Shown here one piece after another: positions 367 to 58,852 of a stretch of DNA of 64,000 bases (the first letter of the stretch is position 1; each line of letters begins with the position of its first letter). The notes under the pieces are model-generated. The model was not told the origin of the DNA. It was given only the letters and a program-made list of their open reading frames with translations, and ran no database searches. Origin of the DNA: Stentor roeselii (lineage: Eukaryota > Ciliophora > Heterotrichea > Heterotrichida > Stentoridae); assembly GCA_006503475.1 (NCBI GenBank), contig RSEH01000099.1:89742-153741 (forward strand), written 5' to 3'. Made by a program: the position numbers and the translations under genes.

Positions 367-2370
367 TTAGAAAATTGTATACTCTGATGAAGTTAGTTTA
401 CTTAAAGACTTGGATAGAGTCTTAGCACTACTTAACAATTCTAGCATCTTTTTGTTAGCTTCTTGCATAAAGGTAGGCTTACTTAGTTCTATTCTGTTTA
501 CTATCAAATTTTTTAGTCTTTGTTGTTTAGATTTCAAAGAACCCTTGTTTTTTATGCGTTTTTTACCACAAAGTTGAGATAAATCAAGCTCTTTTCTGAT
601 ATCTGTCAACTCGATCACATCAATAATTTCTTGCAAGTTCTCACTATTTCTAAGGTTTTTGATTTTTGCAATTTTTTTCATTTCAGCTCCGGTATCTGGA
701 AATTTCATTAAAAGATAGTTCCAAAGTTCTTCACTCATTACTAATAAGCTGCATTCAGTATCAGAGCAAGCTGAAAATTTCACCAGACATTTTTCAATAA
801 CTTCAATTTCTCCAAAATAAGAACCTTGTATCATAGTTTTAAATGAAATCATATCATTATTATAAAGAAAGCTGACTCTTCCTTTAGCAATAAAATAAAT
901 TCCAGTAGGATGTTCTCCCTTTTTATAAACAAATTCATTAGTATTCGTAACTTTCAAGTTCAATCTAGGAACAATATCAATAATAAGACTAACAGACTGC
1001 TCCTGAAAAAAGAAGACTTTCTTAGGAAGTTCATTAAACATCGACATGACAATTTCATATCTTTTATCTTTCGGCATCTGTGAAATGATATCAAGTCTTT
1101 TTTTTTCTTCCATAATTTCATATTCCCCGTTCGACTTCGTGAATTTCTTCATTGCTCGAAAAACTGCTTCGGGGATAAAATTTTCTTTGCAGAATTTTTC
1201 AAGAAAGTCGAGTTTTGCTGATATTCGGATGGCTTTGGCATCAATTGATGAGATCAAAGAGCTTAAAGTTCCTACTAGAAAAGAGTAAAATGAAATGCCG
1301 AATAACATCAAAATCACACAAATTACCATTTCTGTTATTGTGTATGCGTAAATGTCACCGAAGCCTACTGTTGTTATCACGGTAAAGGTAAAGTAAAGAC
1401 CTCGCAGATAAAGCATTCCTGCTGACTCGTCAAGCCATCCATATCGGCTTACCCAGGTATCTGGCCCGAAATCATCAAGTTTTGCGAAGAAGTACCACAT
1501 GCAGGCGCTGATGTGCCCCATGATTAGGATCACGAAGACAGTTGCAATCAGCCTGCTAGTTCCCTGATAATTCATAATAAGATCCTGCCAATACTCAATA
1601 GTATCAGTATCCGAAAAGTGTTCAATAATCTTCAAAATCTTCGAAGCCCTAAAAATGCGAATGACCTTAGTAATCCTAATCATCCTCAAAAAGGCATTCG
1701 ACCTGGTCCCTCCCGAATTCGAATGATCAAGTAAGTAAAACGGCATAATCGAGAAAAAATCAAGAATAAACATTCCTTTAACATAACTTCTCGCAATAAC
1801 CCATCGATCAACAACAACTTTCTTCTCATCATTCACAAAGGCAGAGTTAAAAGTAATCAAAATATCTAAAAAGAACAAAAAGTCCATCGTCGCCTCGAAA
1901 ATAAAAATTCTTGTCCAAGGCTGTTCATTTTCAAAGGCAGTCACCCAAGGCATTCCGATGAGAACATAAAAAATCATCAAAAAAACTAAAAAATTCCAAT
2001 ATTTTTTAAAAGGAGTGTCTGGGTAGAATAGAAAACGATCACCTTGATGAGGAATGTGAGAAATCATTGTTGAATTGTGGAAATTCACTAAACTGTTCAG
2101 GTTTCGTGAGTTTAAACCGTATTCGTGAATGTCATCAAGGACTTTTTTCCATACTAGAATACCTCGGAGCTTTATTCGGGCCTTTTTAAAGAGCTCTTGA
2201 GCGCGAGTGCTTATCACTGGCTTGGATAGGATGTATTCTCTTCTTCTGAAGGTTAGGCTTAGGTTTCTGTAGAAGATTTGGTCACTTTCTTCTGATATTA
2301 CAGGCTCGCTTAATGGTACTGGGTCGTATTTTACTGGGATGGATTCGAGTAGGTTTTTACCTTTTTTCAT
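367..2370 (-). CDS. Voltage-gated K+ channel with C-terminal cyclic-nucleotide-binding domain (EAG/CNG/HCN class)
   Basis: A plasma- or ciliary-membrane potassium channel of 667 residues. Six membrane segments are visible: S1 about 124-144, S2 154-175, S3 200-214, an S4 with regularly spaced Arg/Lys at 229-248 (RMIRITKVIRIFRASKILK), S5 274-296 and S6 347-375. The pore loop carries TTVGFGD (residues 333-339), the GFG filter of EAG/HCN-type K+ channels. A C-linker leads to a cNMP-binding fold at about 465-560 (GIYFIAKGRVSFLY, then GSYFGEIEVIE). In the phosphate-binding cassette the usual Arg is Lys (VKFSA), so ligand binding may be weak or lost, as in EAG channels. Length and domain order are normal for the family and the single exon looks complete. 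The ATG at 2370 is the first Met. Ciliates carry large expansions of this family, so no one-to-one orthologue is claimed. Confidence 0.95.
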   Translation of the reverse strand: MKKGKNLLESIPVKYDPVPLSEPVISEESDQIFYRNLSLTFRRREYILSKPVISTRAQELFKKARIKLRGILVWKKVLDDIHEYGLNSRNLNSLVNFHNSTMISHIPHQGDRFLFYPDTPFKKYWNFLVFLMIFYVLIGMPWVTAFENEQPWTRIFIFEATMDFLFFLDILITFNSAFVNDEKKVVVDRWVIARSYVKGMFILDFFSIMPFYLLDHSNSGGTRSNAFLRMIRITKVIRIFRASKILKIIEHFSDTDTIEYWQDLIMNYQGTSRLIATVFVILIMGHISACMWYFFAKLDDFGPDTWVSRYGWLDESAGMLYLRGLYFTFTVITTVGFGDIYAYTITEMVICVILMLFGISFYSFLVGTLSSLISSIDAKAIRISAKLDFLEKFCKENFIPEAVFRAMKKFTKSNGEYEIMEEKKRLDIISQMPKDKRYEIVMSMFNELPKKVFFFQEQSVSLIIDIVPRLNLKVTNTNEFVYKKGEHPTGIYFIAKGRVSFLYNNDMISFKTMIQGSYFGEIEVIEKCLVKFSACSDTECSLLVMSEELWNYLLMKFPDTGAEMKKIAKIKNLRNSENLQEIIDVIELTDIRKELDLSQLCGKKRIKNKGSLKSKQQRLKNLIVNRIELSKPTFMQEANKKMLELLSSAKTLSKSLSKLTSSEYTIF

Positions 2371-18806: not shown

Positions 18807-21800
18807 TTATTGATTATGTTGATATGGGTGAATTGATTCTAAATTTTCATTTTGTAAACGAACAAGCTTAGTTTTATTGTATTCTCTAAAGATCAAAGCA
18901 TAGTTAATTTTAAATGTAAAAAAATCGCTTATAGTAAAAATTATCCAATTGTAAACCCAAAATGTGCTCCATACTTCGCAATAACTGACAGTCATAATAA
19001 AGATACCGATAATAGATGCAATAATAAAAAAACCGCATATAAATATTTCAATATTTTTGTACTTATCAATTTTTTTGTTATAGTATTGTATTCTTTGTGG
19101 CTGGTCATCACATTCAAAATCTTTTAAATTATTGTTAGAATAAATAAACTTACGTATCATCACATTATAAGTATTCAAAATAAAAATTGGCAAAGCTACA
19201 ACCTGGCTCAAAAAAAATCCAGCAAATCCAGCCTTAGTTTGACTAAAATTGAACTCATCTGAGCTTGTTTCATTTTTATCATCAGCACTATTAAAATACA
19301 ACTGAAAAGCACCAATAAGAGCAATTAAGACCATTTGATTAGTAACAATTTGAATTACAATTAAAGACTTATGCTCAATTCTTTTATCAAAATAAAGGGC
19401 TGTCACTGGATGAACATACCAAAAGATATCCTTATCCATAATTATATTATCGTTTTTGATATTGATTGTCAAGGTATAAAGAGAGAGAACTAAAAGCAGA
19501 ATCAAAACTCCCATTATTATCAGTGGTATGAAACCTTCTGAACAAATGTAAAGTGAGGTATACTCCTGGATTGAATATATTGAAAAGTGAGATACTAGCA
19601 AAGTGATTTGGGTTTCAGTCTGGTTGATGATCTTGCAGCCACTTTCTGTCCAAGAATTAGAAGAGTTAAGATATTTGCACTCGTATTTCTTTGATATGTC
19701 AAAAGTACCTTTCAAATTTATTTTGATACCTTCGGATGAATTAACAGAAACTTCTTGAGTTGTTGAAGAATCGAATAAGGAAAGGCCATTAGACAGATCT
19801 CCAACTTGTTTAATTGTAACATCAAATACAGGAAACTCTTTCTGATAAGAATGCATAATAAAATCATACACATAATTCTTCCTTTCAACATTTAAATCCC
19901 CAGGGAATATCACATCCATCCCGCCAGATTCCCATCTTTCACTAAACAAAGAATCCCTATCAACCCTAAACCTTGCAAATCCAGCCGAAAAATCAACAAC
20001 CTTATCATTAACCAAATTATTTTTCATAACAAAATCACTAAAAAACTTAAAACTCTGATCAATACTCTTCTCATCAAGATAATAAGAAAGAAACCCAAAA
20101 ACCTTTACAAATTTTTTAAAATTCTCAGAATTTAATTGTTTTTGATACCCTTTTAAAATCTTTTTCATAAATTCATTCACATTCTTACTAAGAGCAAGTT
20201 TAAATTCAGTCTTATTAAGCCTTCCTACAAAGACAGACTCTAAACAAGTAAAAAAACTATCAACTGTGAAGTCTTCTATTTGAACAGATAAAAAGTAAAT
20301 CTTAAGTTTTTCGAATAAAAAGTCAACATCTGTCGTATTTTTAATGAATTTTGAGAAAAAAACAACTGCAGCAGGTGTTTCGTCCACATCTTCAATGTCC
20401 TCTTCGAAGTCTTGAAGAGTGACTGACAAGAATCTTTCATTTTTTTGACTTTTAACGTATATTGATGTGAAAGTTTTACAGCCTTGATTACTGTCACAGA
20501 CTTTCATTGCTAATTGTTGAGCTTCTTCAGGGATTCTTAGATTTAAAGATGAATAAGGAACTTGCTTTGTTAACCAGACTTCTGAAGAGTTTTGAATGAA
20601 ACCGAATTGATAGAAAAGAAATGAGTCGCTGTCTTGGTCTTGGCAGTTTAAGCCTGAATAGTGAACTTTGCCTTTTGATGACTCGGTTGTTAAGAACTTT
20701 TGACATGTTGGAGGAGTGTTTATGTATATGCTTATTGAGGTGGAAACTGCACTTTCTTCAGGCGATGATGGAGATTTTAGTGAAAGACTGATGATATAGT
20801 TTTCACCAGGTTTTAAACTGCCTTTTGGGATTGATAAGTATTCTTTGTTGGTTTCTAGATTTTTTAGTGGTTTTGGATTTACCATCCAACTGATCTCTTT
20901 TTCACCATCCAAAAAAAGATAAGGTGTTAAAATCAACGATTCCTGGCCATTAACAACCTCAGGTACCTGAGCCATAACAATCTCCCCTCGAGCTCCTTCA
21001 CTAAAAAACACCATAACCTCATCCTTACTTTCTTTAAAAGGTTCATCTCTTCTAACTTCCACTCTAAAGCTACAAAAGCTATTATTTCTAATTCTTTTTT
21101 CCTCAACATGAATAAATTCCTTAAAATTATCCCTTATAAGAGGTTTAAAGTCACTTCCAAGACATTCTTTACCATCACGATCAAAACCTTTCCACAAAAA
21201 AGTAAAATTTTTGAACAAAGGCTCATCAGGGTCATTCACCTGAGCCTTTAAATCAAAAGGATGAAAAGTTGAAACATTTCCTGAAGCTCTGTTCAAGGTT
21301 AATTCAAGAGAAGCTGAAAAAACTTGAACTTGAATCTTTGCAGAGCCTTGAACGTTATTCGCTGAATTGATTTCTACTTGAAATAAATAAGAATTGTTGA
21401 TGTCCAAAGAGGTTTTGTTGAGAATTAACATGTTTGGATATTGAGATTTGAATTTTCCTGGTGGGGAGTAAAAGTCTTCATTTAAGGCGAGATTTTTCAT
21501 TGTCCATTTGTATTGAAAACCGATTTCTGAACATGAGTTTATTATTTGTGATTTTAAAATAAGGTTTTCAGAGGTTTTATAGATTATACTGTCGCCTTGA
21601 GGGAAGGATATTGTTAGGATTTTTTTTGGAAGGACGTCGATTGAGATTGATTTTGAGTGTGAGGTGTTAAATACTGTGTCTGTTACTGTCAATGTCAAAC
21701 TCGCAAGAGGCTGTGGCAGATCTTGAATCATCAAATCAATTTCTGCAGATGTCCAATTTTTTACTATCTCTTCCAACCCAAAATCACTAGATGACCATGA

Positions 21801-24800
21801 ATAAACAAACCTAGGATTGAACGGAAAAGATGCAACTTTAATCAAATCTAAGCCACAAACCTTCGAAACCTGTCCAGGGTAAACAATACTAAATTCCGGA
21901 AATGGTTTTCCACTCGCTCTTAACTCAACATTCAAATCCTTCACTTGTTCATCACACTCTCCAAAAGGCACCTTTTGAAAAAAACTCGGGTTTAAAATCA
22001 AACTTCCATTATTCCCATTAACAGGCTGTGAAAACTTGATTAAAAATTTTTTATTTGAAATCCATTCTGCCGATTTTACAAATTCAACTAAATTTCTAGG
22101 CAATTCAAAAACATCATTATTCTTTATCTTCTTTTTATCAATTTGACCCAGGCTGATATTAGCAGGACTAGCAAAGTCGATTTGAATACTTCTGAAGTCA
22201 GGAGAATATTCAGCACTTATTTCACTTGGATGGTAAAAATAACCACAAGTTAAACAAAAGTTCTGAACTGCTTTAAACCCTGGAAGACAAACACAAGTCT
22301 TTGAAAGAGGATCGAATTCGCTGTTTGAGGAACATTCACAGTTACCTTCTAAATCAGGTCTTGAATTCGATACACATTTATAACAGGTTGTTGGACTTAA
22401 CTGTAAAAAACACTCGTCATCTGATAACTCTCGGTCTTTTCTTATTTCAAAGGTAAAGGTTTTGGTCTTGTTCCAAGATTCAAAAAAGCAGGGAAAAAAA
22501 CCTGGAGAATTGAAAAAAAGGTAAAATTTTACTTGTCCTGTTGAAGTCCATATTGAATTGTTGAGAAGACCTGAGTTATCTGAGCATGAAAGATGTACAA
22601 GTGACTTTAAATGGAAGAGTTCTTCGTTGTAGCTGATTAGGTCAGCTGTTATTTCTATTAAAGTCAGCATTGGCCATGATAAAGAGGACTCGTTGATTGA
22701 AATGTATTTTAAAGATGATACAACTTTTATTAGTTTTGAGTAGTTGCATCTCAATTCAGGCCCAGTCAATATCGTTAAATTGTAAGTCCCTGGATTCTTA
22801 ATCATGAAAGTCTCGTTTAAGTGCCCTTGTAAAACTTTTGAAGGTAAACTGAATGCTTTATTTAAAGTATCTGAAAAAGTTAATAAATAAGACCCGAAAT
22901 AAGTTTCTTTGTGGTCTGGATCATCTCCATATACAAACCCTTCAACTACCAAAAGAGTTGAATCACTCACGACTTCCAAGTCATCAAAAGATGACCAGAC
23001 CTTCAAGAAATTACTAAAACATTTTATCTGAAATTGTTTTTTTTCAGAACTTTTATCTGAATTTAATTCCAGGTAATAATTTTTATTTGACCCTAGAGAT
23101 ATAAAGAACGACCCTGAAGGTGAATAAGAAAAAATCAAAGTATTTCCTCGAATTAATCCTGAAGTTCTTTCATAAATATTGATTTTCGCATCTAATAAAT
23201 AAGGTTGATCATCATCACCTGTTAATTTATAAAAAATTTCAAAAGGGTAGTTAACGAAAACATTTTCAGGAAACTCGATATCGATTTTTTTTATAAAATT
23301 TCGAAAGAAATGAGTCTCATACCTCACAGCAGGCTGGTCAGAATAAAAAAGACTAAAAATAAAGAACCCAGAACTCGATATCTTTATATCTTTTAATTGA
23401 AAACTTCCATCATTACCAGTAGTAAAAATCCCTGAAAGATCTTTATTGATTTTAAGTCCTGAAGCTCTAATGTTTTTACTCATATTTTCAGTAAAAGACA
23501 ATTTAAATGAAACATTTTTCAAACGTACCCCGAACTTCGACGAAAAAACAACAAGATCAAAATTTCTCTTACTGTCAACTTCTGAAAGATTTTGAAGATT
23601 ACTTGAAATTTCCAAATTAAACTGAATATTCGTAGTAGCTTCAAGTGAATAATTCAAGTTAAAGTCAAAAGTTTCTTCTCGGCCTGGCTGAAGAGCGACA
23701 CTAAAGATAGAAGCTTGATTGACTACCAAGTTATCAAATCTCAAAAAGCCATTAAAACATTCAACTTTTTTTTCTCCTTCATATGAAAAACTTTCACAGC
23801 TGGGAAATGAGTTGTTGTTGATGCAGTTCAACTTCAAAACGACGTGAAAGTTATTAGCTTGTGGAAGAGGAAAAATGTCCTGCAGGTCTTTCATTACTTG
23901 GAAGTCTAAACTGAATTTATTTTCAGAGAAAATTTTTAGATCTTTGAAATTTGGTTTTATGTAAGCTCGAGACACTTTCAAGGATATTTCTTGTGAACTG
24001 TAATCAACTGCTGGGTCTGCTACAAGGACGCCGATTGAAAAAGCTCCAGCATTTTGAGGAACGAGAGTCAAAATCAAGCGATTTTTTTCATTTTCTATGA
24101 AAAACACGTTTTTTACCCAAAAGTCAGAACTTGTTGTTTGGTTTATGTCAGACTTTATTAAATACTTTTCGTTGTCCTCTCCTAGAAGACTAACAGAAAT
24201 GTTGAAATCTTCGAAAACAGTTGAATTTATCTCTGATGGAAAAACCTCTGCACGAAGGACTTTATTTTTAATGAAAAATTTTTCAGTTGTAGTGAAAGAT
24301 GTCAGGTTTTCACTTGATGCTTCTAGTTTAAACCAACCTGATGAAAGAATTTTCAAGTTTTTAAAGAAAACTGGTCCTTTTGCTGTTTCTGAAAGATTTC
24401 CAGTTAAAATGGCTCCTGAGCAATTTTCAACTGGAATTAATTTTAAATTAACAGATAGAGGGTGGAAGTTGTTTTTTACATAAGAGTTGTTGAAAGGCTC
24501 TGCGATTACTGTGAAAGTTTCACTTGTTTTCGGAAGGGATAAGGGAAAATCAAGTTTTAATGAATTTTTTAATACTTTTAGGTGGATTGTTTTTTTATTG
24601 ACTTCGGAAATTATTTCAAGGGATGCGTCTCCGTGACCTAAAAACATCAAATCGTGAATTTGGAATTTACCTTCAAGACTTGAGGGTTTTAAAGTACCTA
24701 ATAGACCTAAAGTACTTTTTTCTATTATTTCAAGGCTACAGGGTAATAAGAATGGTTGCTGATCATCACCCAGGAATAAAATATTCATGGAAAACAGGAA

Positions 24801-26138
24801 GTAATTGAAAATTATTTCCTCGGTTATTGAGAGCTCGAAGGATTTTAGGTAGTTTTTAGATGTAATACTTGAAGATGTTTCATCTTTGAAGTCATCTCCG
24901 GTTTTTACTTTGAATTTAAAAACCCCTGAAGAAAGAATTAAAAAGTTTTCTAATCTGTAAGGGTTCATAGTTAAAGGAAACTCGAAAGAACCGTTTTTAT
25001 AATCAACTGAATTAACTTTTATTGTTTTTCCAGAAGTTTGATTTGCTTCGATTAATTGAATGAAAATCATCAATGGTTTCTTACTAGAATCGATCTTTAA
25101 AATTTCTGACATATTTTTCAACTGAATACTGAAATTTATAGGGACTTTGCTATCACTTTCCTATATAAACATTACGGAGTCAATAATTACTTCGATCTTT
25201 CCCGGTTTCACTGTAAAATCAAAATTTTGCTTAAAAGTTTTTTTATCATTTTTCATTTCAGTCGCTGTAAATTCAACAGAAAACTTTCCAAGATTTTCTG
25301 GATTTGTTTCTAAAACCAGTTCACCAATGACTATAATTTTTTCATCACTCAAGCCAAAGAGTTTTTGACTATCTTTCACTTCTAAGTAAAATTTTTCTAG
25401 ATATTTCATCTTATTTTTTCCAAATGCCTTCAAAATAACTTTTGTCTTTTCATTAATGACGAAAATATTTTCATTGATTTCTATGCTTTGAATTGAGCTG
25501 CTGATAAAAAGGGTCTCATTTTTATCTACTATTTCTGATGTTTGATTCGAATTATAACTGATCAAAACATTTATCACAAGAAAATAACTCCCTGATTGAT
25601 CCACCCTCAAATTAAAAAAAGAACAAGAATCATTATTCAACATTTCACTTTCTTTAGACCCAATCAAAAGACCATTTTTTTCTTTATTTATTTCCTGAGT
25701 CACGTCAAGAAAACAGGAAAATTTTAAGTCCTTTGGTCTTGAAATGTTGAACCTTATGTGAAAGTCAAAAAAATCGCCGATGTTTGATGGTTTTTCTTTT
25801 ATGAACTCTTTTGAATATGATAATCCTTTTATCAAAGCTAAAACATTAAATTCTTGGTTGTTGCATTTGATGATTATTGGAAATTCTCCTGCACTGGTGA
25901 AGTAAAACTCGAAGAGAATTGATTGATTCGCTTGGAGGCTGGTTGATTGAGTTGAGAAGTTTCTTACTGTGAAGTCATTTGGAAAGTCTTTTAGGATTAT
26001 TTCTGAGTTTTTTAAGGCGGTTAGTTGGAGTTGGAAGATCGAAAAGGTTGATGATGTTGGCTTAGATATCAAAGTGCAGAACTGACCATTGGCCAGATCG
26101 GAGAGGCAGAGAGATAAAATATTGAATAAACTTACCAT
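18807..26138 (-). CDS. Large surface protein with REJ-like region, GPS-like motif and C-terminal multi-pass membrane domain
   Basis: Two frames are joined by a 15-nt intron at 25161-25175 into one protein of 2438 residues. An N-terminal signal peptide (about 1-19, MVSLFNILSLCLSDLANG) precedes a long extracellular part. This contains repeated Ig-like modules, each with a SSG-[VWF]-F motif (for example ILSSGVFKF, ILSSGWFKL, SSSGFFIF), a Cys-rich segment at about 1230-1300 (CYKC...CECSS...CVCLPGF), and a REJ-like region at about 1400-1800. A GPS-like motif at about 2144-2186 has CKYLN, SWTESGC and then SHFS in place of HLT/S, but lacks the usual Cys-x-Cys. At least five membrane helices follow (from about 2198) and no PLAT or ion-channel domain. 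REJ/GPS proteins include polycystin-1 and sea-urchin REJ; ciliates have many. Role as a receptor or adhesion molecule is inference. Confidence 0.85.
25161..25175 (-). other. 15-nt intron (REJ/GPS gene)
   Basis: Coding-strand GTAATGTTTATATAG, phase 0; its terminal TAG produces the apparent stop. Splicing reads ...EVIIDS then ESDSKVPINFSIQL.... Confidence 0.85.
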
Positions 26139-48819: not shown

Positions 48820-50553
48820 CTACTGCTCAATTTTTTTTAATTTATTTAAAATTTCATGAAAAGACAATCTTTCCAGTGGATCATCTTCCCAGCATCCCAG
48901 TATCAAGTCAGCAACATTTTGATTAAGTTCAAAAGGAATCTCAAGAAAACTTCTACATCCAAGTACTTCTTCCTTGACTTCCTTAAGGTCAAGTGCTTGA
49001 TAAGGTTGAGTTTCAGTGAAGATTTCCCATACAATGACTCCAAAAGAGTAGACATCATCAGAGAACTCCGTTTTAACAGCAGTGAGTCTTCGATCAGCTA
49101 AGACCTGTGGCGAGCTCCAGGCGCTTTTATTTGAATAGCCACAAACGATTCCAGCATATTTTTTAATTTTCGCCATGCCGAAGTCAGTGACAAAGACTCG
49201 ATCACTGTGACTGACAACAATATTGTGACTAGTAAGATGGCCATGGACCTTTCCTAAAGAATGCATATGACAGAAGCCACTCGCAATCTGCATCAAATAA
49301 CTCAACTTAACATTAAACCCCATCGTCTTCTTCTCAATATGCATCAACTTAAACAACGACCCCGGCTCCACAAGAGGGGAAATCGTGTAAATCACTGGAA
49401 GTTCTAAAGAAACTCCTAAAATCGGAAGAATGTTCGGATGCACTGCGTTGCATGCGTCAAGCTCTTGAGAAAAGTCTTCGAGGACGTAGGTGCTAAGACG
49501 GGAAAATACGATTTTTCTTACAAATACATCTCGACCTTCGAAGGTTGCTTTGTAGACTTTGCCTAGACCTGAAATGCTTGAAGGGATTTGGGAAAGAATG
49601 CAAACGTCTTTCATGTTTACTCGGATTTGAAGACTTCTGTCGAGGACTGAACTGTAACTTTCATGGCTTGTTTGTCTTAAAGAGATTTTTTTCTTTGATT
49701 CGTTTTCTTCTTCGGTAAATACGAAAATTCCCATAAATGCGTAGTCGAGAACCATCAAAACGCATACTATTTCACTGATTATTAGAATTGTGAATAAACA
49801 TGCTGCTTGTGCATTGCCTAAACTGCTGCTTTCGCTTTTTGACATTTGGTGTGATAGAGAGGTATCTTTGTATTGGTCGAGGATGTCAAGGATTCCTTGT
49901 AATACACGGGCGAAGGTCCAAAATATCGTCACGATACTGATTCGGTTTAGTTTTGTTCTCCAGGTTTCATTCCTCAAAGGAACTCCAGAGAACCTAAGTT
50001 GCAAAGTAACCATTCCAATAACCGTACTTCCAGCAAGGCTAAAGTTACAAATTCCCACTTCTCTCGAAATATTTTTAAAATGAATAATTTTGTTTCCCAC
50101 CAAAATATAAAGACAAGTCTGAGTCCCAATCCACACCGTCAAAGCAAAAGTAATATAAGAGCTCAACTTGTCATATCGATTCGCTTTAAAGAACTTCAAA
50201 AATACCGCAATACTAGTTCTAGTATTAGTATGAGCCGATGAGAAGGCAAGCAAGACTTGCCATAAAAGCAGCATATAAGAAACAACAAACATGCTATCCG
50301 GTATCGAAAGAAGCAGAAAAACAAGAGTCGGGCTCAACGTCGACTCGCTCAAAACCAACAACAAAAGAAAACACGACGATCGAAAGGTACATTGAACCAG
50401 CATCGAGATATAAAAACCTTTCGACGGTTTCCAATCCGGTGAAAACTTGTGTAAACGCGCTGTACGAACCAGGCAAAAAAGAGTCGTGATTCCATAAAGC
50501 ACGAAAAGAAGAGTCGATCCAAGAATTGCGATATTATTTTGAGAGTCTCCCAT
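48820..50553 (-). CDS. Seven-TM protein fused to a TKL-type (pseudo)kinase
   Basis: A 577-residue membrane protein. Seven hydrophobic helices span about 8-29, 47-68, 77-104, 126-152, 168-188, 205-225 and 250-274. Their pattern (RSSCFLLLL, then IPDSMFVVSYMLLLWQVLL) recalls the plant THH1/TOM1/TOM3 membrane domain. A kinase fold of the TKL class follows at about 320-577. It keeps a Gly-rich loop (GLGKVYKA), Lys347, a likely alpha-C Glu364 and DFG at 457-459. The HRD motif, however, is HGH (437-439) and the HRDLKxxN Lys is Thr, so the catalytic Asp is missing. It is therefore probably an inactive, ligand-modulated pseudokinase, though plant TKL proteins with HGN motifs can retain some activity. 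A 7TM-kinase single chain suggests a one-piece receptor. Confidence 0.9.
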   Translation of the reverse strand: MGDSQNNIAILGSTLLFVLYGITTLFCLVRTARLHKFSPDWKPSKGFYISMLVQCTFRSSCFLLLLVLSESTLSPTLVFLLLSIPDSMFVVSYMLLLWQVLLAFSSAHTNTRTSIAVFLKFFKANRYDKLSSYITFALTVWIGTQTCLYILVGNKIIHFKNISREVGICNFSLAGSTVIGMVTLQLRFSGVPLRNETWRTKLNRISIVTIFWTFARVLQGILDILDQYKDTSLSHQMSKSESSSLGNAQAACLFTILIISEIVCVLMVLDYAFMGIFVFTEEENESKKKISLRQTSHESYSSVLDRSLQIRVNMKDVCILSQIPSSISGLGKVYKATFEGRDVFVRKIVFSRLSTYVLEDFSQELDACNAVHPNILPILGVSLELPVIYTISPLVEPGSLFKLMHIEKKTMGFNVKLSYLMQIASGFCHMHSLGKVHGHLTSHNIVVSHSDRVFVTDFGMAKIKKYAGIVCGYSNKSAWSSPQVLADRRLTAVKTEFSDDVYSFGVIVWEIFTETQPYQALDLKEVKEEVLGCRSFLEIPFELNQNVADLILGCWEDDPLERLSFHEILNKLKKIEQ

Positions 50554-50578: not shown

Positions 50579-51022
50579 TTAGTGCTTAAAAATACTCTTC
50601 ACGAACTTCTGGTAGTCGATTAAACCATCTTCTTGCTGCGCAAGTTTAATTAAATCGTCTGCCTCGTCTTCATCTATCGGGTCTCCTAGTTTCATCATGA
50701 TGCTCTTCAGCTCGGATGTGCGAATCACGCCTGAAGAGTCTCGGTCGAAGACTTTAAAAGCTTCGATTGTTTTTTCTTCGATTTCTACGTCGGTTATCGT
50801 TTTAAGCATCATGTTGACGAACTCTTGGAAGTTTATTGCACCGTCTTTGTCGTTGTCTACTTCTTCGATCATCTCTTGAAGCTCGATTTGTGTCGGGTTG
50901 TGGCCCATTGCTCGCATTGCTACTCCCAGTTCGTGAGATGTGATCACACCGTCCATGTCTTTGTCGAAGATTTGAAATGAGTTTCGGAATTCTTCGAGTT
51001 GTTTTTCACTTAAATTTTCCAT
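50579..51022 (-). CDS. Calmodulin-like EF-hand protein
   Basis: A 147-residue four-EF-hand protein, the length of calmodulin. Loops 1-3 are canonical Ca2+ sites: DKDMDGVITSHE, DNDKDGAINFQE and DRDSSGVIRTSE. Loop 4 (AQQEDGLIDYQK) has lost the first Asp and the liganding position pattern, so it probably does not bind Ca2+. The N-terminus (MENLSEKQLEEFRNSFQIFD) is calmodulin/centrin-like. It starts after a 203-bp flank with no C on the + strand. The 25 bp between its stop and the 7TM-kinase start leave almost no room for separate regulatory DNA. Confidence 0.94.
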   Translation of the reverse strand: MENLSEKQLEEFRNSFQIFDKDMDGVITSHELGVAMRAMGHNPTQIELQEMIEEVDNDKDGAINFQEFVNMMLKTITDVEIEEKTIEAFKVFDRDSSGVIRTSELKSIMMKLGDPIDEDEADDLIKLAQQEDGLIDYQKFVKSIFKH

Positions 51023-52552: not shown

Positions 52553-55500
52553 ATGGGAAATTCGGGTCCACAAAATGGAGCGATAGTACAAAGAAGGGTA
52601 GTTCCCGATAAAGGTGCAATAGTAGAAGATCTTTCACAGAAATCTCAGCAGGCAACTCTTGTTAATATTGATGACTACTTGCTCTATAGTATACAAAGGA
52701 AATTACTTGAAATCAGAACTTCACCTTGTCAAACTTTCATGCATTCAGGAAATGTCAATTCTTTCAAATTTTCTAAATGCGGCAGATTTCTTGCAACTGG
52801 ATCAAGTGATAATGTAATAAAAGTATGGAATCTTAATGAAAATAAACTAGAATTCAGTGAAAGTCATTCCGGAGCAGTTACATCTGTATGTTTTTCATCC
52901 AATGGAAACTTCTTAGCTTCAGGATCTGGTGACAAGACAGTGAAGATATGGAACATAAAAGAAAAAAGAGAAGAATTTACAGGAGATCATTTAAGTGATG
53001 TAAACTCTCTAAGCTTTTCAGTTAATGGAAACTTAGTAGCTTCCGGATCCAACGACCAAACCGTGAAAGTTTGGAATATAAAAGAAAAAAAATTAGAATT
53101 TTGTGGGAATCACTCAAACTTTGTTAATTCTGTATGTTTTTCTGAAGATGGAAACTTCTTAGCTTCCGGATCTAAAGATCATACAGTAAAGGTCTGGCAT
53201 CTAAAAGAAAAAAAAGAGGAATTTACAGGTAATCATTCTGAAAGTGTCAATTCTGTTAGTTTTTCTCCTGATGGAACATTCATAGCTTCAGGGTCCAACG
53301 ACTATACAGTAAAAGTATGGAATATCAGAGAAAAAAAAGAAGAACTAACAGGAAATCATTCAGGAAATGTTAGTTGTTTATGTTTTTCATCTAATGGATA
53401 CTTAATAGCTTCAGGATCTTGGGATAATTCAGTGAAGGTCTGGAATATTAAAACAAAAAGAGAAGAATTAACTATAAAACATTCAAACATTATAAGTTCA
53501 GTTTATTTTTCTGTTAATGGAAACTTCTTACTTTCAGGATCCTATGACGGTACAGTGAAGGTCTGGAATATCCAAGAAAAAAAAGAACATTTCTCTGGCT
53601 CTAATTCAATATCTGGAAATTTTGCTTGTTTTTCTGAAGATGGAAATTTCGTAGCTTCATCATCCACAGACCATGCAGTAAAAGTATGGAATATAAAAGA
53701 AAAAAAAGAAGAATTTATTGGGAATCATTTAAGTGAAGTGAACTCTGTATGTTTTTCTGTTAATGGAAAATTTGTAGCTTCAGGATCAAATGATTATACA
53801 GTGAAAATTTGGAATATCAAAGAAAAAAAAGATGAATTTTCAGGAAATCATTCTGGAAATGTTTCTTCTGTAAGTTTTTCTTTTGATGGAAATTTTGTGG
53901 CTTCTGGATCTGAAGATAAGACAGTGAAAATTTGGAATATTAAAGAAAAAAAAGAAGAATTTACTGGAAAACATGATGGGTGTGTTAGTTGTGTTTCTTT
54001 TTCAAGTGATGGGAACTTTGTTGTTTCTGCATCTGCAGATAAAACAGTGAAGGTTTGGAATGTTAAAGAAAAAAAAGAGGAATTTTGTGGGAATCATTTA
54101 TGGAGTGTGAACTCTGCTTGCTTTTCGGTTGATGGGAACTATATAGCTTCAGTATCGAATGATGAGACAGTGAAGGTGTGGAATATTAAAGAAAAAAGAC
54201 AAGAATTCAGTGGTTCTCATTCAAGCTACGTAAATTCTGTATGCTTTTCAGTTGATGGAGCTTTAGTCGCTTCAGGATCATGTGATAATACATTGAAAGT
54301 GTGGAATATAAAAGAAAAAAACGAGCTATTCACTGGAAATCATCTTAAAAGTGTTAATTCTGTTTGTTTTTCTATTGATGGGAACTTCGTAGCTTCAGGA
54401 TCTGAAGACCATACAGTGAAGGTCTGGAATATCAAAGAAAAAAAAGAACAATTTTCTGGAAATCATTCAAATATTGTTTATTCTGTGAGTTTTTCATTTG
54501 ATGGTAACTTCGTCGCTTCGGGATCCTACGACAACACAGTAAAGGTCTGGAATATTCAAGAAAAAAGAGAAGAATTTTGTGGATCTCACTCAAACTTTGT
54601 AAATTCTGTATGTTTTTCTTTTTATGGAAACTATTTAGCTTCAGGATCCAATGACAAGACAGTGAAGATTTGGGCTATTAAACAAAAAAGTGAAGATTTT
54701 ACGGTTATTCATTCTGGAATAGTTACTTCTATTTGTTTTTCAAATGATGGAAACCTTTTAGCTTCAGGATCCTACGACACTTCCGTAAAACTATGGAATA
54801 TAAAAGAAAAAATTGAAGAATTTTCTTATAATCATTGCGCAGGTGTTACTTCTCTCTGTTTTTCATATGATGGAAACTTCATAGCTTCAGGATCCTATGA
54901 CTATACAGTGAAGGTCTGGAATATCAAATCAAAAAGAGAACATTTCACTGCAGATCATTCTGAAATAGTAAACTCTGTTAGTTTTTCATTTGATGGTAAC
55001 TTCGTCGCTTCAGGTTCCTACGACAATACAGTAAAGGTCTGGAATATTCAAGAAAAAAAAGAAGAATTTTGTGGAAATCATTTATCTGATGTAAACTCTG
55101 TTTCTTTTTCAAATGATGGAAACTTCGTAGCTTCAGGATCCTATGACAGAAGGGTGAAGGTCTGGAATATTAAAGAAAAAAGAGAAGAGTTTATCGGAAG
55201 TCATACTGCAAAAGTTAAATCGGTTTTTTTTTCAGTTGATGGAAACTTCGTAACTTCAGGATCCTGTGATAATACAGTGAAAGTTTGGAATGTTAGAGAA
55301 AAAAAAGAAGAATTTTGTGGAAATCATTCAGCTGATGTGAATTGTGTTTGTTTTTCAATTGATGGGAAATTTGTTGCTTCAGGATCTAGTGATAAGACGG
55401 TGAAGGTTTGGAATATTAAGGAAAAAAGAGAGGAATTTTGTGGGAATCATTTTGGAATTGTGAATTTTGTTTGTTTTTCTATTGATGGGAAATTTGTGGC

Positions 55501-58500
55501 TTCTGGATCTGAAGATAAGACAGTGAAAGTTTGGAATATTAAGGAAAAAAGAGAAGAATTTTGTGGATATCATTCTGATTATATTAGATGTGTTTGTTTT
55601 TCGTTTGATGGGAATTTTGTAGCTTCGGGATCTGAAGATAACACAGTTAAAGTATGGAATATTAAAGAAAAAACAGAACTATACTCTAGAAGCCATTCAA
55701 GCGATATGAATTCTCATTATTTTTCAGTTGATGAAAACCTTATAGATTCAGACTCTTCACAACATGTTGAAAATTATCAAGCGATCAAGGAAAATAACTT
55801 AGATTTTATATGCCAATCTCCAGACTTAAATTTTTCTGCATCAGGAAATTCATCCAGTAATATCATCATCATTATGGATCATAGAATACAACAATTATAT
55901 GAAATTAATGCCTACCCTAAATCTGCATCTTTTTCATTCGACGGAAAAAAAATTGCTTTTGGGCTTCCCAATCAAAACATAAAGTTGTTGAGTATTGACG
56001 ATAGGCAAGAATATTGTATTTTTAATCACCAAAAACAAGTAACCTCTACTTGTTTTAGCCATAATAGTGAATATTTAGCATCAGCCTCTGAAGATTTGAT
56101 TATAACGATATGGAAAGTTGAAGAAAAAATGGAAGATTTTGTTCTAAAGAATACAAATACTACTGTGTCCTCTATTTGTTTCTCTTTTGATGATAGATAT
56201 TTAGCTTCAGGTTCAATTGATGGAATAATAAATGTTTGGAGTATTGAAGAAAAAAGAAAATCTTTCACTCTTTCTGGTCACTTGAACAGTGTAAATTCAT
56301 TATGCTTTTCAGTTGATAGAAATTTAATTTTTTCTGGTTCATCTGACAGAACAGTTAAAATCTGGAGTTTTGATGCCCAAGCTCTAACAGTTAATTTACA
56401 AAATCATACTGATGAAGTTATTTCAGTCTGTGTTTCTCAAAATGGAGAACTTCTTGTTTCTGGATCTATTGACAAAACATTCAAAGTTTGGAGTATCTTG
56501 AAAAAAGTACTTTTGTTTAGTCAAGATTGTTCCAGTTCAGTAATATCTGTTAATTTTTCTAGAATTGATCAATCATTAGCAGTTGGATTAATTGAAGGGA
56601 AAATTATTTTATGGAAGTTTTCTGAGAAAACTAAAAGCGAAGAGTTCAATGCTATTGATGGAGTATCAAAGCTAGAAATCGCTACTGGTGATATTTCGGG
56701 AACAGTATCAGATAATGAAAGTCTAAAGTATTTGATCACTAAAGATCGTTGTTTGCTTCTTCATGTACAAAACTATCAACCAAAAAACTTAAAATATATA
56801 ACAGACCAAAACACAGGTATGAGAGCTAGAGATAATAGAAGTTCAAAGAGAAATAGTGAGTTTAGCATATCACAAAATAGTATAGGTTTCGAAATATTGA
56901 ACAGTAAAAATCAACTTATTCAAAATTTTAAGATAATAGAGCATACAAATCTAGAACTTATAGTTGAAATCAATTCAAAACGTATCGCTTTACAATTAGA
57001 AAAACCAATTAATAAAAACAAACTCTATCAAAACCTTTTAGATTATCAAAAAATGACAAATAGCATAGTTGAAATTGATACTGATATAATTCCATTAAAA
57101 GAATTAATACTTCGACCATCATCTATTCGTGATTCATTTCATTGTTATGGATCAATTCACTATCAATTAATAGAAGCTATTCGAAGTAATGATATTTCAA
57201 AAATTGGTCCAAAACATTGTGAAGGTTTAATTTCTGAAAACAAATATACAATCTTGCATATCCTTTCTGTTCTAGGAAAATCAGAACAGTTAACTCAAAT
57301 ATTAAACAACAGTAATGAAAGTATTTTGATAATGGCAGATCAATTCGGAAAATCTCCATTATTTTATTCTAAGTTAAGAAAAGAAATGGACTGTTTTGAT
57401 ATACTATTGGAATATTTGATCAACTTTGATGAAACTGATAAAAATAAACTAGTTAAAAGTTTATATTCAACCAGAAATGATTTCATGTTAATCATTGAAA
57501 CTTCATCAGCAAACCTCACTACATTTTTATCAAAAATAGTAATAACATCAGAGAGTAAACTACCAATACCTATATCATTTAAATTACCAAATATTTTAAG
57601 ATCTTCAACAATGATGCCTAGTTTTAAAATAGATTTTTTCAACACCATATCCTCTGATGAAAATACAAGACTAACCAATAGTCAATTAAAATATATTGCA
57701 ATATCTCTACCAATTCAACCATATTCAACAAAAAACATATCAGCTCTTCAAGTACTGAGTAACTGCTCAGATAAAAAAATTTATGATGATATCGTGATTC
57801 AATTTTTCATTAATTATAATTGGAATCAAGTCTTTCGATGGGCTGTTTGTTATTCTGTGTTAATTTGGATTCATCTTATTTTTTATGGGATTACTCTTAT
57901 CGATACCAGTGATATTTATTTAATGATACCCTTTTGGATTACTTATTGTTTGATTTTCATTTGGGAAATATTACAGATGAGGGTAAATTTCAGAGAATAT
58001 AGGTCAAATGCTTGGAATTTCATAGATATTTTACTTATTCTTTCCACACCTGTTTGGAGTATCCTTAGGATTTTAAATGTAGATTCACTTTATATAGACT
58101 TGGCACTCGCTTTACTCCTAATGATCAGAGGAATTCCTTCATTTAAAATCTTCGATGGAACCAGGCACTACATTCGTTTAATCCTGCAATCTCTAAATAA
58201 TATCAAATACTTTTTAATTATTTTTATTTACTCAACTCTTTTCTTCTCCCTGCTCTTATTCATAGTTCTTTCAAACGATGAAGAAGATAAATCTAATTAT
58301 TTTGAAGTACTTAAAAAGTCTTGGGCTTTGAGTGTTGGTGGAGATATGGGAATAGAAAGTCAATATAACATTATTTTCTTAGTTATTTTTATTTCTACGA
58401 TTTTAAATTTGATTCTTATGCTCAACATGCTCATTTCGATTCTTGGAGACAGTTATGATCAGTTTACAATTGATAAAAATATGATTGACTATAGAGAAAG

Positions 58501-58852
58501 GATCTCATTAACTCTTGAAGTACAAACCGCATTGTTTTGGAAAAATCAGGTGAATCAATCTTTTTTTGTTCATTTTCTGGAAAGTCAGTTTCAGAATCGG
58601 ATGCAAGAAAATGATGATTGGCAAGGAAGAATAATGTATGCGGAACAAAGACAAGAGATGAGAATTGATGAGTTGGCTAAGAAGGTCGATGGAGTTCAAA
58701 TAAAGATTGATGGAGTTCAATCAAAGATTGATAGGAAGATTGATGGAGTTAAGTCTGAGATTAATAAGAAGATTGATGGAGTAGAAATGAAAATTACTGA
58801 AATGAGTTCCCAGCTTGTGCAGCTAATTGAAAGTCTTAAGTCTAATAGATAA
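52553..58852 (+). CDS. WD40-ankyrin-TRP-like channel fusion, 2099 aa
   Basis: A single 6.3-kb exon. It starts MGNSGPQNG (possible N-myristoylation). Residues about 60-1055 form 24 WD40 blades of 41 residues (core VKVWNIKEKKEEF, then GNHS); a degenerate stretch is followed by about 8 more divergent blades to about 1370, some 32 in all, or four to five propellers. Residues about 1540-1650 contain ankyrin-like units (YTILHILSVLGK, DQFGKSPLFYSK). A six-helix ion-channel module spans about 1756-1966, with pore-loop SWALSVGGDMG (near 1928) and an S6 ending NMLISILGDSYDQF, as in TRPV/polycystin-type channels. The C-terminus is a coiled coil of repeated KIDGV units. The channel call is well supported; the stimulus and ion are unknown. 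Confidence 0.93.
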   Translation: MGNSGPQNGAIVQRRVVPDKGAIVEDLSQKSQQATLVNIDDYLLYSIQRKLLEIRTSPCQTFMHSGNVNSFKFSKCGRFLATGSSDNVIKVWNLNENKLEFSESHSGAVTSVCFSSNGNFLASGSGDKTVKIWNIKEKREEFTGDHLSDVNSLSFSVNGNLVASGSNDQTVKVWNIKEKKLEFCGNHSNFVNSVCFSEDGNFLASGSKDHTVKVWHLKEKKEEFTGNHSESVNSVSFSPDGTFIASGSNDYTVKVWNIREKKEELTGNHSGNVSCLCFSSNGYLIASGSWDNSVKVWNIKTKREELTIKHSNIISSVYFSVNGNFLLSGSYDGTVKVWNIQEKKEHFSGSNSISGNFACFSEDGNFVASSSTDHAVKVWNIKEKKEEFIGNHLSEVNSVCFSVNGKFVASGSNDYTVKIWNIKEKKDEFSGNHSGNVSSVSFSFDGNFVASGSEDKTVKIWNIKEKKEEFTGKHDGCVSCVSFSSDGNFVVSASADKTVKVWNVKEKKEEFCGNHLWSVNSACFSVDGNYIASVSNDETVKVWNIKEKRQEFSGSHSSYVNSVCFSVDGALVASGSCDNTLKVWNIKEKNELFTGNHLKSVNSVCFSIDGNFVASGSEDHTVKVWNIKEKKEQFSGNHSNIVYSVSFSFDGNFVASGSYDNTVKVWNIQEKREEFCGSHSNFVNSVCFSFYGNYLASGSNDKTVKIWAIKQKSEDFTVIHSGIVTSICFSNDGNLLASGSYDTSVKLWNIKEKIEEFSYNHCAGVTSLCFSYDGNFIASGSYDYTVKVWNIKSKREHFTADHSEIVNSVSFSFDGNFVASGSYDNTVKVWNIQEKKEEFCGNHLSDVNSVSFSNDGNFVASGSYDRRVKVWNIKEKREEFIGSHTAKVKSVFFSVDGNFVTSGSCDNTVKVWNVREKKEEFCGNHSADVNCVCFSIDGKFVASGSSDKTVKVWNIKEKREEFCGNHFGIVNFVCFSIDGKFVASGSEDKTVKVWNIKEKREEFCGYHSDYIRCVCFSFDGNFVASGSEDNTVKVWNIKEKTELYSRSHSSDMNSHYFSVDENLIDSDSSQHVENYQAIKENNLDFICQSPDLNFSASGNSSSNIIIIMDHRIQQLYEINAYPKSASFSFDGKKIAFGLPNQNIKLLSIDDRQEYCIFNHQKQVTSTCFSHNSEYLASASEDLIITIWKVEEKMEDFVLKNTNTTVSSICFSFDDRYLASGSIDGIINVWSIEEKRKSFTLSGHLNSVNSLCFSVDRNLIFSGSSDRTVKIWSFDAQALTVNLQNHTDEVISVCVSQNGELLVSGSIDKTFKVWSILKKVLLFSQDCSSSVISVNFSRIDQSLAVGLIEGKIILWKFSEKTKSEEFNAIDGVSKLEIATGDISGTVSDNESLKYLITKDRCLLLHVQNYQPKNLKYITDQNTGMRARDNRSSKRNSEFSISQNSIGFEILNSKNQLIQNFKIIEHTNLELIVEINSKRIALQLEKPINKNKLYQNLLDYQKMTNSIVEIDTDIIPLKELILRPSSIRDSFHCYGSIHYQLIEAIRSNDISKIGPKHCEGLISENKYTILHILSVLGKSEQLTQILNNSNESILIMADQFGKSPLFYSKLRKEMDCFDILLEYLINFDETDKNKLVKSLYSTRNDFMLIIETSSANLTTFLSKIVITSESKLPIPISFKLPNILRSSTMMPSFKIDFFNTISSDENTRLTNSQLKYIAISLPIQPYSTKNISALQVLSNCSDKKIYDDIVIQFFINYNWNQVFRWAVCYSVLIWIHLIFYGITLIDTSDIYLMIPFWITYCLIFIWEILQMRVNFREYRSNAWNFIDILLILSTPVWSILRILNVDSLYIDLALALLLMIRGIPSFKIFDGTRHYIRLILQSLNNIKYFLIIFIYSTLFFSLLLFIVLSNDEEDKSNYFEVLKKSWALSVGGDMGIESQYNIIFLVIFISTILNLILMLNMLISILGDSYDQFTIDKNMIDYRERISLTLEVQTALFWKNQVNQSFFVHFLESQFQNRMQENDDWQGRIMYAEQRQEMRIDELAKKVDGVQIKIDGVQSKIDRKIDGVKSEINKKIDGVEMKITEMSSQLVQLIESLKSNR
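52740..55700 (+). repeat. 123-bp coding tandem array (24 WD40 blades)
   Basis: The 41-codon blade repeats with exact 123-bp period (for example TCT-TGT/AGC starts at 52883 and 53006). Some copies are almost identical at nucleotide level. Confidence 0.92.
58684..58795 (+). repeat. Coding minisatellite in the coiled-coil tail
   Basis: AAGATTGATGGAGTT recurs with small changes (58703, 58736, 58769), encoding K-I-D-G-V units of the tail helix. Confidence 0.75.

Follow-up and report, generated by a model that had tools for sequence, protein, structure and literature searches.

A single open frame in the 64,000-nucleotide stretch of Stentor roeselii DNA that we analysed (the window) encodes a long array of WD40 blades, a short ankyrin-like stretch and a TRP-like six-helix channel in one chain. 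The gene belongs to a large family in the same genome, and its closest members combine a conserved channel with blades that turn over. The most variable blade positions include those that vary in the fungal HET proteins. We tentatively read the protein, at a little under even probability, as a cation channel of TRP type that partners gate or tune by binding to its propellers, with the paralogues forming a sensor repertoire.

Architecture of the encoded protein

The gene lies at 52553-58852 on the forward strand, as do all features below, and runs for 2099 residues from an ATG to a TAA stop with neither an internal stop nor an N, confirming the uninterrupted single reading unit of the preliminary description. 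TGA terminates five of the 27 frames of at least 250 codons in the window and is absent in frame from the WD40-channel gene, which encodes 41 tryptophans. Therefore, the standard code was applied, and a reassigned code was ruled out by the use of TGA as a stop.

Twenty-four blade-ending tryptophans, from residue 92 to 1035, are spaced by 23 exact 41-residue steps. Together with Pfam and a local HMM trained on 23 of the protein's own blades, they delimit 24 WD40 blades of near-constant period (residues 62-1035, 52736-55657). Eight additional units, several of them degenerate and counted partly by eye, follow at residues 1036-1354 (55658-56614). The total of 32 by eye, the 29 blades called by the local HMM and a Pfam WD40 match at E 2.5e-270 agree with the approximately 32 tandem blades reported before. 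The blades probably form four to five propellers. Pfam gave no match at E 0.1 for the N-terminal 60 residues (52732 being their last base, 52553 their first; 61 residues were scanned) or for the linker past the last clear blade (residues 1355-1558, 56615-57226), and NACHT was not among the 25 listed of the 46 Pfam families matched by the whole protein. By eye, the linker may contain one last degenerate blade.

The linker leads into an ankyrin-like stretch of about two repeats (residues 1559-1629, 57227-57439). In this protein alone Ank_2 reaches E 0.05, which falls short of Pfam's cut-off; 19 of 21 family members match it with E no higher than 1 (2.2e-8 in the best case). Against PDB chains, the 21-member profile scored best with a designed ankyrin (3.6e-22) and also found NOMPC (1.5e-19); these whole-sequence scores are sums over multiple copies, and the two alignments inspected have top single stretches of only 0.05 and 0.012. 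In TRPA1, one stretch spans the ankyrin part through S6 (profile 76-475, 1.8e-13). The ankyrin-like units described earlier thus hold for the profile and most members, but in this protein they are weak and come to only about two repeats.

A six-helix channel had also been proposed, and at the level of sequence it is supported by hydropathy and profile searches over residues 1745-2001 (57785-58555). Hydropathy segments fall at about 1759-1786, 1785-1809, 1820-1844, 1837-1868, 1883-1909 and 1932-1968, and a seventh peak overlaps the fifth segment. Alignments to TRPV3 and 6pw4, with hydropathy, place S5, the pore loop and S6 at residues 1883-1968 (58199-58456). A loop bearing G-G-D (residues 1926-1934, 58328-58354) would fall on the TRPV3 filter in the alignment and is a putative selectivity filter. 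The C-terminal KIDGV tail (residues 2026-2095, 58628-58837) has coiled-coil periodicity, with 3.67 the strongest of nine periods tried and p 0.014 for 3.5, the only period tested by shuffling. Its suggested role in channel assembly is hinted at by this periodicity and by a TRPM_tetra match in two of 21 members.

Kinship of the channel half with TRP channels

With a profile of the transmembrane region only (21 members), the leading chains were 6pw4, labelled 'TRP-like ion channel' (1.3e-8), a TRPM2-like chain (6co7, 2.1e-7) and TRPV3 (3.7e-7). We take 6pw4 to be Chlamydomonas TRP1. The first Kv channel followed at 2.3e-5, ahead of TRPM8 (3.5e-5) and TRPV1 (9.4e-5). With three TRP chains in the lead, the channel half appears to be nearer to TRP channels than to six-helix channels of other kinds. 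By eye, no classical TRP box was seen after S6. Pfam Ion_trans did not match this protein's channel half at E 1; ten of 21 members do match, at best 1e-12. Ion_trans has 162 matches in the genome, with four-domain and cyclic-nucleotide-gated channels among them, which have the six-helix fold in common with the family. Among the matches listed, which do not extend to the last of the 162, and with positions compared by eye, none coincides with a WD40-channel locus, because the family is too divergent to appear in this ranking.

The TRP channels recovered (6pw4, 6co7, TRPV3, TRPA1 and NOMPC) share with the ciliate protein the six-helix region and S5-S6, and TRP channels also share its coiled-coil tail; the ankyrin stretch ahead of the TRPA1 channel is collinear with that of the ciliate protein. 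They differ in what stands in front, as the ciliate protein has about two supported ankyrin repeats preceded by some 32 WD40 blades. No PDB chain named as a WD40-TRP fusion was found among all 42 matches of one search or the best 60 of 509 and 60 of 196 of two others. Titles and abstract openings in the literature searched named none either, and the Stentor genome paper may describe the family.

A WD40-channel family in one genome

Searched against its own genome, the channel half gave 72 scored matches. At 56 of these loci WD40 blades lie in the same open frame, down to 24% channel identity; nine loci were outside this test. The one-chain arrangement of WD40, ankyrin-like and TRP-like parts therefore stands for this gene and its relatives. 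Further queries brought the family to about 105 loci by hand tally, counted as assembled and possibly including assembly duplicates, and dozens of such genes are present in the one genome. The preliminary description called the protein unusual. As one of about 105 it is not unique here, but the word is apt insofar as the searches above named no such fusion.

Blade turnover and variable positions

Set A1 comprised 16 genes. From 11 of them we used the 315 blades whose HMM match fits 41 residues gaplessly, including 27 of the 29 of this gene. L017, L026 and L029-L031 are within set A1 and outside the codon set; the broken or interrupted L015, L016 and L022 are outside both set A1 and the codon work. 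Pair tests covered 11 of 21 possible pairs among the seven closest (young) genes, namely the ten among L010-L014 and this gene with L009, and three of six pairs among four old genes.

For 17 of the 27 blades of this gene, the nearest DNA neighbour is another blade of the same gene, as it is for 21 of 26 in L013 and 20 of 25 in L014. In L018 and L019, whose channels are equally similar (86%), the counts are 0 of 34 and 0 of 33. Mean DNA identity among 23 blades of this gene is 0.72. High repeat identity with turnover between repeats is thus found in the ciliate array, and in the seven young genes this turnover goes together with a conserved channel.

Codons 7, 9, 25 and 27 of the HET-D and HET-E repeats of Podospora are under positive selection, in pairs around conserved codons 8 and 26, according to PMC1805685. 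By spacing they map to blade positions 16, 18, 34 and 36, around V17 and D35. This set supersedes our first one (15, 16, 24, 34 and 36), which was derived from the data. Of 101270 four-position sets, only 34 reach the variability of this one in the present gene, and 6-97 do across the seven young genes; an excess is seen in the four old genes too (251-2101). Among the 188 blades of the young genes there are 159 distinct quartets, a number that one of 2000 random four-position sets attains. Positions 15 and 24, outside the HET set, are equally variable in this gene. Top-face residues vary among WD40 proteins generally. The contact sites of Gbeta seem to match the variable positions, and we did not use them as evidence.

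In the 11 young pairs, pN at the four positions relative to blade pS is 1.02-1.36, against 0.25-0.37 for the framework, and the bootstrap interval lies wholly above 1 in four pairs. The three old pairs give 0.30-0.40 and 0.29-0.41. Pooled maximum likelihood did not reach an omega above 1 in the young genes (0.63 at the four positions, 0.295 elsewhere), and gave 0.084 and 0.215 in the old. Estimates made gene by gene in the young set range between 0.30 and the bound of 50, and a linked-partition codon run on the young set yielded relative rates of 2.49 and 0.84 and no omegas. For collinear reciprocal-best blades, nine young pairs with 4-10 blades each give ratios of 0.45-1.04, one of them with no excess over the framework. 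The HET positions are therefore among the most variable in young genes, while pooled omega stays below 1.

The maximum-likelihood omega below 1 and the ratios of the collinear blades would fit neutral repeat turnover, with gene conversion homogenising the framework and the four positions varying through loose constraint. We regard this purely evolutionary account as possible though somewhat unlikely. It is at odds with the old, non-homogenised genes, where omega at these positions is 0.084 and constraint is not loose, so that it differs between subfamilies. Such an account is compatible with a role of the propellers as tether or as scaffold.

The likeness to HET-D and HET-E, both NWD proteins, extends to long arrays of similar repeats, repeat turnover and high variability at the same four positions (PMC1805685). 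Repeats there reach 100% identity, whereas none of the 315 ciliate blades are identical, so the ciliate array is the milder case. The ciliate array is also N-terminal, its output is a channel, and it did not yield the omega above 1.

Proposed working and alternatives

In the reading we favour, the channel is probably a tetramer held by the C-terminal coiled coil. Its N-terminus would be a cytoplasmic stack of four to five propellers, linked to the gate through the short ankyrin-like stretch. Partners or ligands may bind the propeller top faces, and the resulting load or rearrangement could be relayed by the ankyrin stretch to the pore, which would open or be tuned and admit cations, most likely Ca2+. 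The paralogues would have a common pore and differing top-face residues, renewed by duplication and exchange of blades, and the family would therefore act as a repertoire of sensor channels with differing specificities. The preliminary description suggested a large cytoplasmic platform or spring suited to a mechanosensitive cell. Blade turnover and variable top faces among the young genes agree better with diversified binding than with a uniform spring, and so speak for many channels gated by recognition, a repertoire, more than for a single spring. If our reading is right, TRP-type channels have expanded in this ciliate with propellers replacing long ankyrin chains, and variable WD40-repeat recognition, known from fungal self/non-self genes, is coupled to ion flow in a single chain. 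That would provide a molecular receptor family for single-cell behaviour amenable to knockdown and patch clamp.

A bolder version is doubtful: that a single-celled organism has a repertoire of some hundred recognition channels, each joining a diversified, HET-like WD40 surface directly to an ion channel. If true, one protein would turn the recognition of self, a partner, prey, a symbiont or a pathogen into an electrical or Ca2+ signal.

In NOMPC, an ankyrin chain pulls the gate. The propellers could likewise grip the cortical cytoskeleton and pull the gate on stretch or contraction, and the NOMPC match of the ankyrin stretch (the 1.5e-19 of the whole-sequence score) points that way. Several protists use TRP channels in mechanosensing (PMC7935092), and EML-type propellers bind microtubules (PMC5068960). 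Models of EML type are among the Pfam matches of our protein, though cross-matches between propellers carry little information. We consider a tethered mechanosensor unlikely, since a shared cytoskeletal anchor would not require the top faces to be the most variable part in young genes, and blade number ranges from 16 to 36 by local HMM in 15 uninterrupted relatives.

WD40 propellers are general interaction platforms, and those found here may simply collect kinases, calmodulin or G-protein parts around an ordinary Ca2+ channel that is merely tuned or localised. About 1.5 kb from this gene, the opposite strand carries a calmodulin-like gene, a proximity that may be chance. The deflagellation response of Chlamydomonas, a Ca2+ response, requires two separate proteins, the TRP channel ADF1/TRP15 and the EML-like, many-bladed WD40 protein ADF3/FAP16 (PMC5068960), so the two parts can cooperate unfused; the analogy is a functional one. 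Scaffolding leaves the fast blade turnover and the fit to the HET positions unexplained, and we hold it to be quite unlikely.

That two genes, or a broken gene, were misread as one is very improbable: seven of the 72 loci are broken or interrupted by hand tally, and C80 and C151, within the 56, also show stops in their channel-half match, but the frame here is intact and the join is kept at those 56 loci, by which two joined genes were ruled out.

For nearness of family loci to contig ends, a Kolmogorov test gave p 0.06 with 23 loci and 0.03 with the 17 that sit on contigs above 40 kb, a result confounded by assembly breaks at repeats and not counted as evidence. Telomere units were missing at 11 of 12 contig ends inspected together, where C116 and C19 start, and at the end of the window, which is the end of C4. 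The unit TGTTAGGG is present at four contig ends (C146, C427, C403 and C438). It is a permutation of the Blepharisma telomere unit (PMC9942806), from which genus this genome differs in its use of TGA as a stop, and it is consistent with a heterotrich origin.

An open frame joining WD40 blades to a channel

The gene at 52553-58852 (+) encodes 2099 aa with zero internal stops, and the blades, ankyrin-like units, six-helix part and tail that the preliminary description placed in one frame are all found there. Its tandem WD40 array comprises 24 regular blades, whose terminal tryptophans are exactly 41 aa apart in all 23 steps; roughly eight more units, part of them degenerate, extend it to residue 1354. 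A local HMM finds 29 blades. Because Pfam WD40 alone reaches E = 2.5e-270, chance is excluded for the repeats. A linker without a Pfam match leads to the ankyrin-like stretch, followed by six hydrophobic segments and the coiled-coil tail.

A search of the 44.4-Mb S. roeselii genome with the channel half gave 72 scored matches. WD40 matches lie in the same open frame as the channel in 56 of the 72 loci, by a hand tally in which WD40 presence was assessed in 63, and this bears out the proposed single-chain fusion. In 12 of the 56, one match spans both parts (contig C80 among them, with a TAG inside the channel); in 9 the arrangement was established from fetched sequence, in 7 it was shown by a second query, and in 28 the channel match has WD40 matches next to it on its own contig and strand, within an equally long open frame. 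Seven of the 72 are broken, interrupted or fragmentary (C31, C403, C19, C288, C374, C239 and C220). Extra queries added 5 loci (one, on C116, matched only to the start of the membrane part), then 28, with the WD40 part also matched in frame in 13, and then 0, giving a family of at least about 105 loci; because the search scores only the best candidates, every family count is a minimum, unless some loci are assembly duplicates.

The channel resembles TRP channels

Alone, the final 714 residues matched TRPV3 across S5-S6 (best chain E 2.3e-4) and had no match to Pfam Ion_trans. A 21-member profile of the channel half with its ankyrin stretch matched ankyrin proteins and NOMPC via that stretch, and TRPA1 in an unbroken run reaching from the ankyrin part to S6 (E 1.8e-13 for the whole sequence). 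The top match of a transmembrane-only profile was 6pw4 (1.3e-8), deposited as a TRP-like ion channel, which we take to be Chlamydomonas TRP1. A TRPM2-like channel and TRPV3 ranked next, and Kv channels (2.3e-5) came below TRPV3 but outranked TRPM8 and TRPV1. With Pfam at E up to 1, the 21 members yielded Ank_2 (19), Ion_trans (10), PKD_channel (4) and TRPM_tetra (2). By these matches the channel is classed as TRP-like, its subfamily not being clear.

Blade turnover and variable positions

Mean identity among 23 blades of the window gene is 72% in DNA and 63% in protein. A blade's closest blade lies in its own gene for 17/27 blades of the window gene and, in the related loci forming the young set with it, for 14/24 (L009), 11/29 (L010), 17/29 (L011), 12/28 (L012), 21/26 (L013) and 20/25 (L014). 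The corresponding counts in the old set are 0/34 (L018), 0/33 (L019), 1/30 (L020) and 5/30 (L021). Channels of L018 and L019 (86% identity) and of L010-L013 (82-87%) are equally alike. Reciprocal-best blades are collinear for 30/34 in L018/L019 and for 7-10 of 28-29 in pairs among L010-L013. Since L018/L019 blades are collinear, those of L010-L013 mostly not, and own-gene neighbours mark mainly the young genes, arrays turn over in one branch and are static in the other.

Four codons of the HET-D/HET-E repeats are reported to be under positive selection: 7 and 9, flanking conserved 8, and 25 and 27, flanking conserved 26, on the propeller top face (Paoletti and others 2007, PMC1805685). By our own mapping, based on spacing, they correspond to highly variable positions of the 41-aa blade, 16 and 18 (flanking V17) and 34 and 36 (flanking D35). 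Of 101270 four-position sets, 34 are as variable in the window gene, 6-97 per young gene (n=7) and 251-2101 per old gene (n=4). The four positions form 159 distinct quartets in 188 young blades, reached by 1/2000 random sets, and 111 in 127 old blades, reached by 130/2000. Pairwise pN at these positions over blade pS is 1.02-1.36 across 11 young pairs, with a bootstrap interval wholly above 1 in 4; in 3 old pairs the ratio is down at framework level.

Pooled maximum-likelihood omega at the four positions is 0.63 in young genes vs 0.295 elsewhere, and 0.084 vs 0.215 in old genes; neither pooled set exceeds 1 there. Gene-by-gene estimates, from four codons, scatter widely. Over collinear reciprocal-best blades the ratio is 0.45-1.04 in nine young pairs; one of these, L010/L011, shows no difference between the four positions and the framework. 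Change at these positions in the young genes is therefore relaxed or favoured when compared with the framework and with the old genes, and positive selection is not demonstrated.

A possible recognition repertoire

The best-supported reading is a TRP-type cation channel that would carry a multi-propeller cytoplasmic recognition platform, coupled to it by the short ankyrin-like stretch, with paralogues bearing different surfaces. It is the sequence variation that suggests a repertoire. Two unfused Chlamydomonas proteins, one a TRP channel and the other an EML-like WD40 protein, are described as sharing one response (PMC5068960). Alternatively, the propellers could possibly act as a cytoskeletal tether or a scaffold.

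Telomeres, genetic code and neighbouring genes

Among the contigs read, four end in telomere units of TGTTAGGG (C146, C427, C403 and C438), and relatives of the window gene sit on them; the window gene itself is on C4, at a distance of 5.15 kb from a contig end without such units. TGTTAGGG is a permutation of the unit described for Blepharisma (PMC9942806). UGA is reported there as tryptophan in Blepharisma stoltei, whereas TGA terminates 5/27 long frames in the window. The telomere unit and TGA as stop thus fit a heterotrich using the standard code.

A calmodulin-like EF-hand gene (50579-51022, (-)) neighbours the channel gene. At 48820-50553 (-) a protein kinase (PK_Tyr_Ser-Thr 5.5e-36, residues 331-572) has, by eye, many hydrophobic stretches in its N-terminal half before the kinase domain and looks like a membrane receptor-kinase fusion. 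A 2117-aa frame at 18810-25160 (-) contains a REJ domain (4.6e-7), which occurs in polycystin-1-like proteins. A cyclic-nucleotide-gated type channel (Ion_trans plus cNMP_binding) lies at 370-2370 (-). Elsewhere in the genome, several frames of about 1400-1860 aa (for example on C296, C55, C97, C131 and C502) have up to four Ion_trans each among the matches listed and resemble four-domain Cav/Nav channels; many single Ion_trans matches, also among those listed, lie in frames of 550-800 aa.
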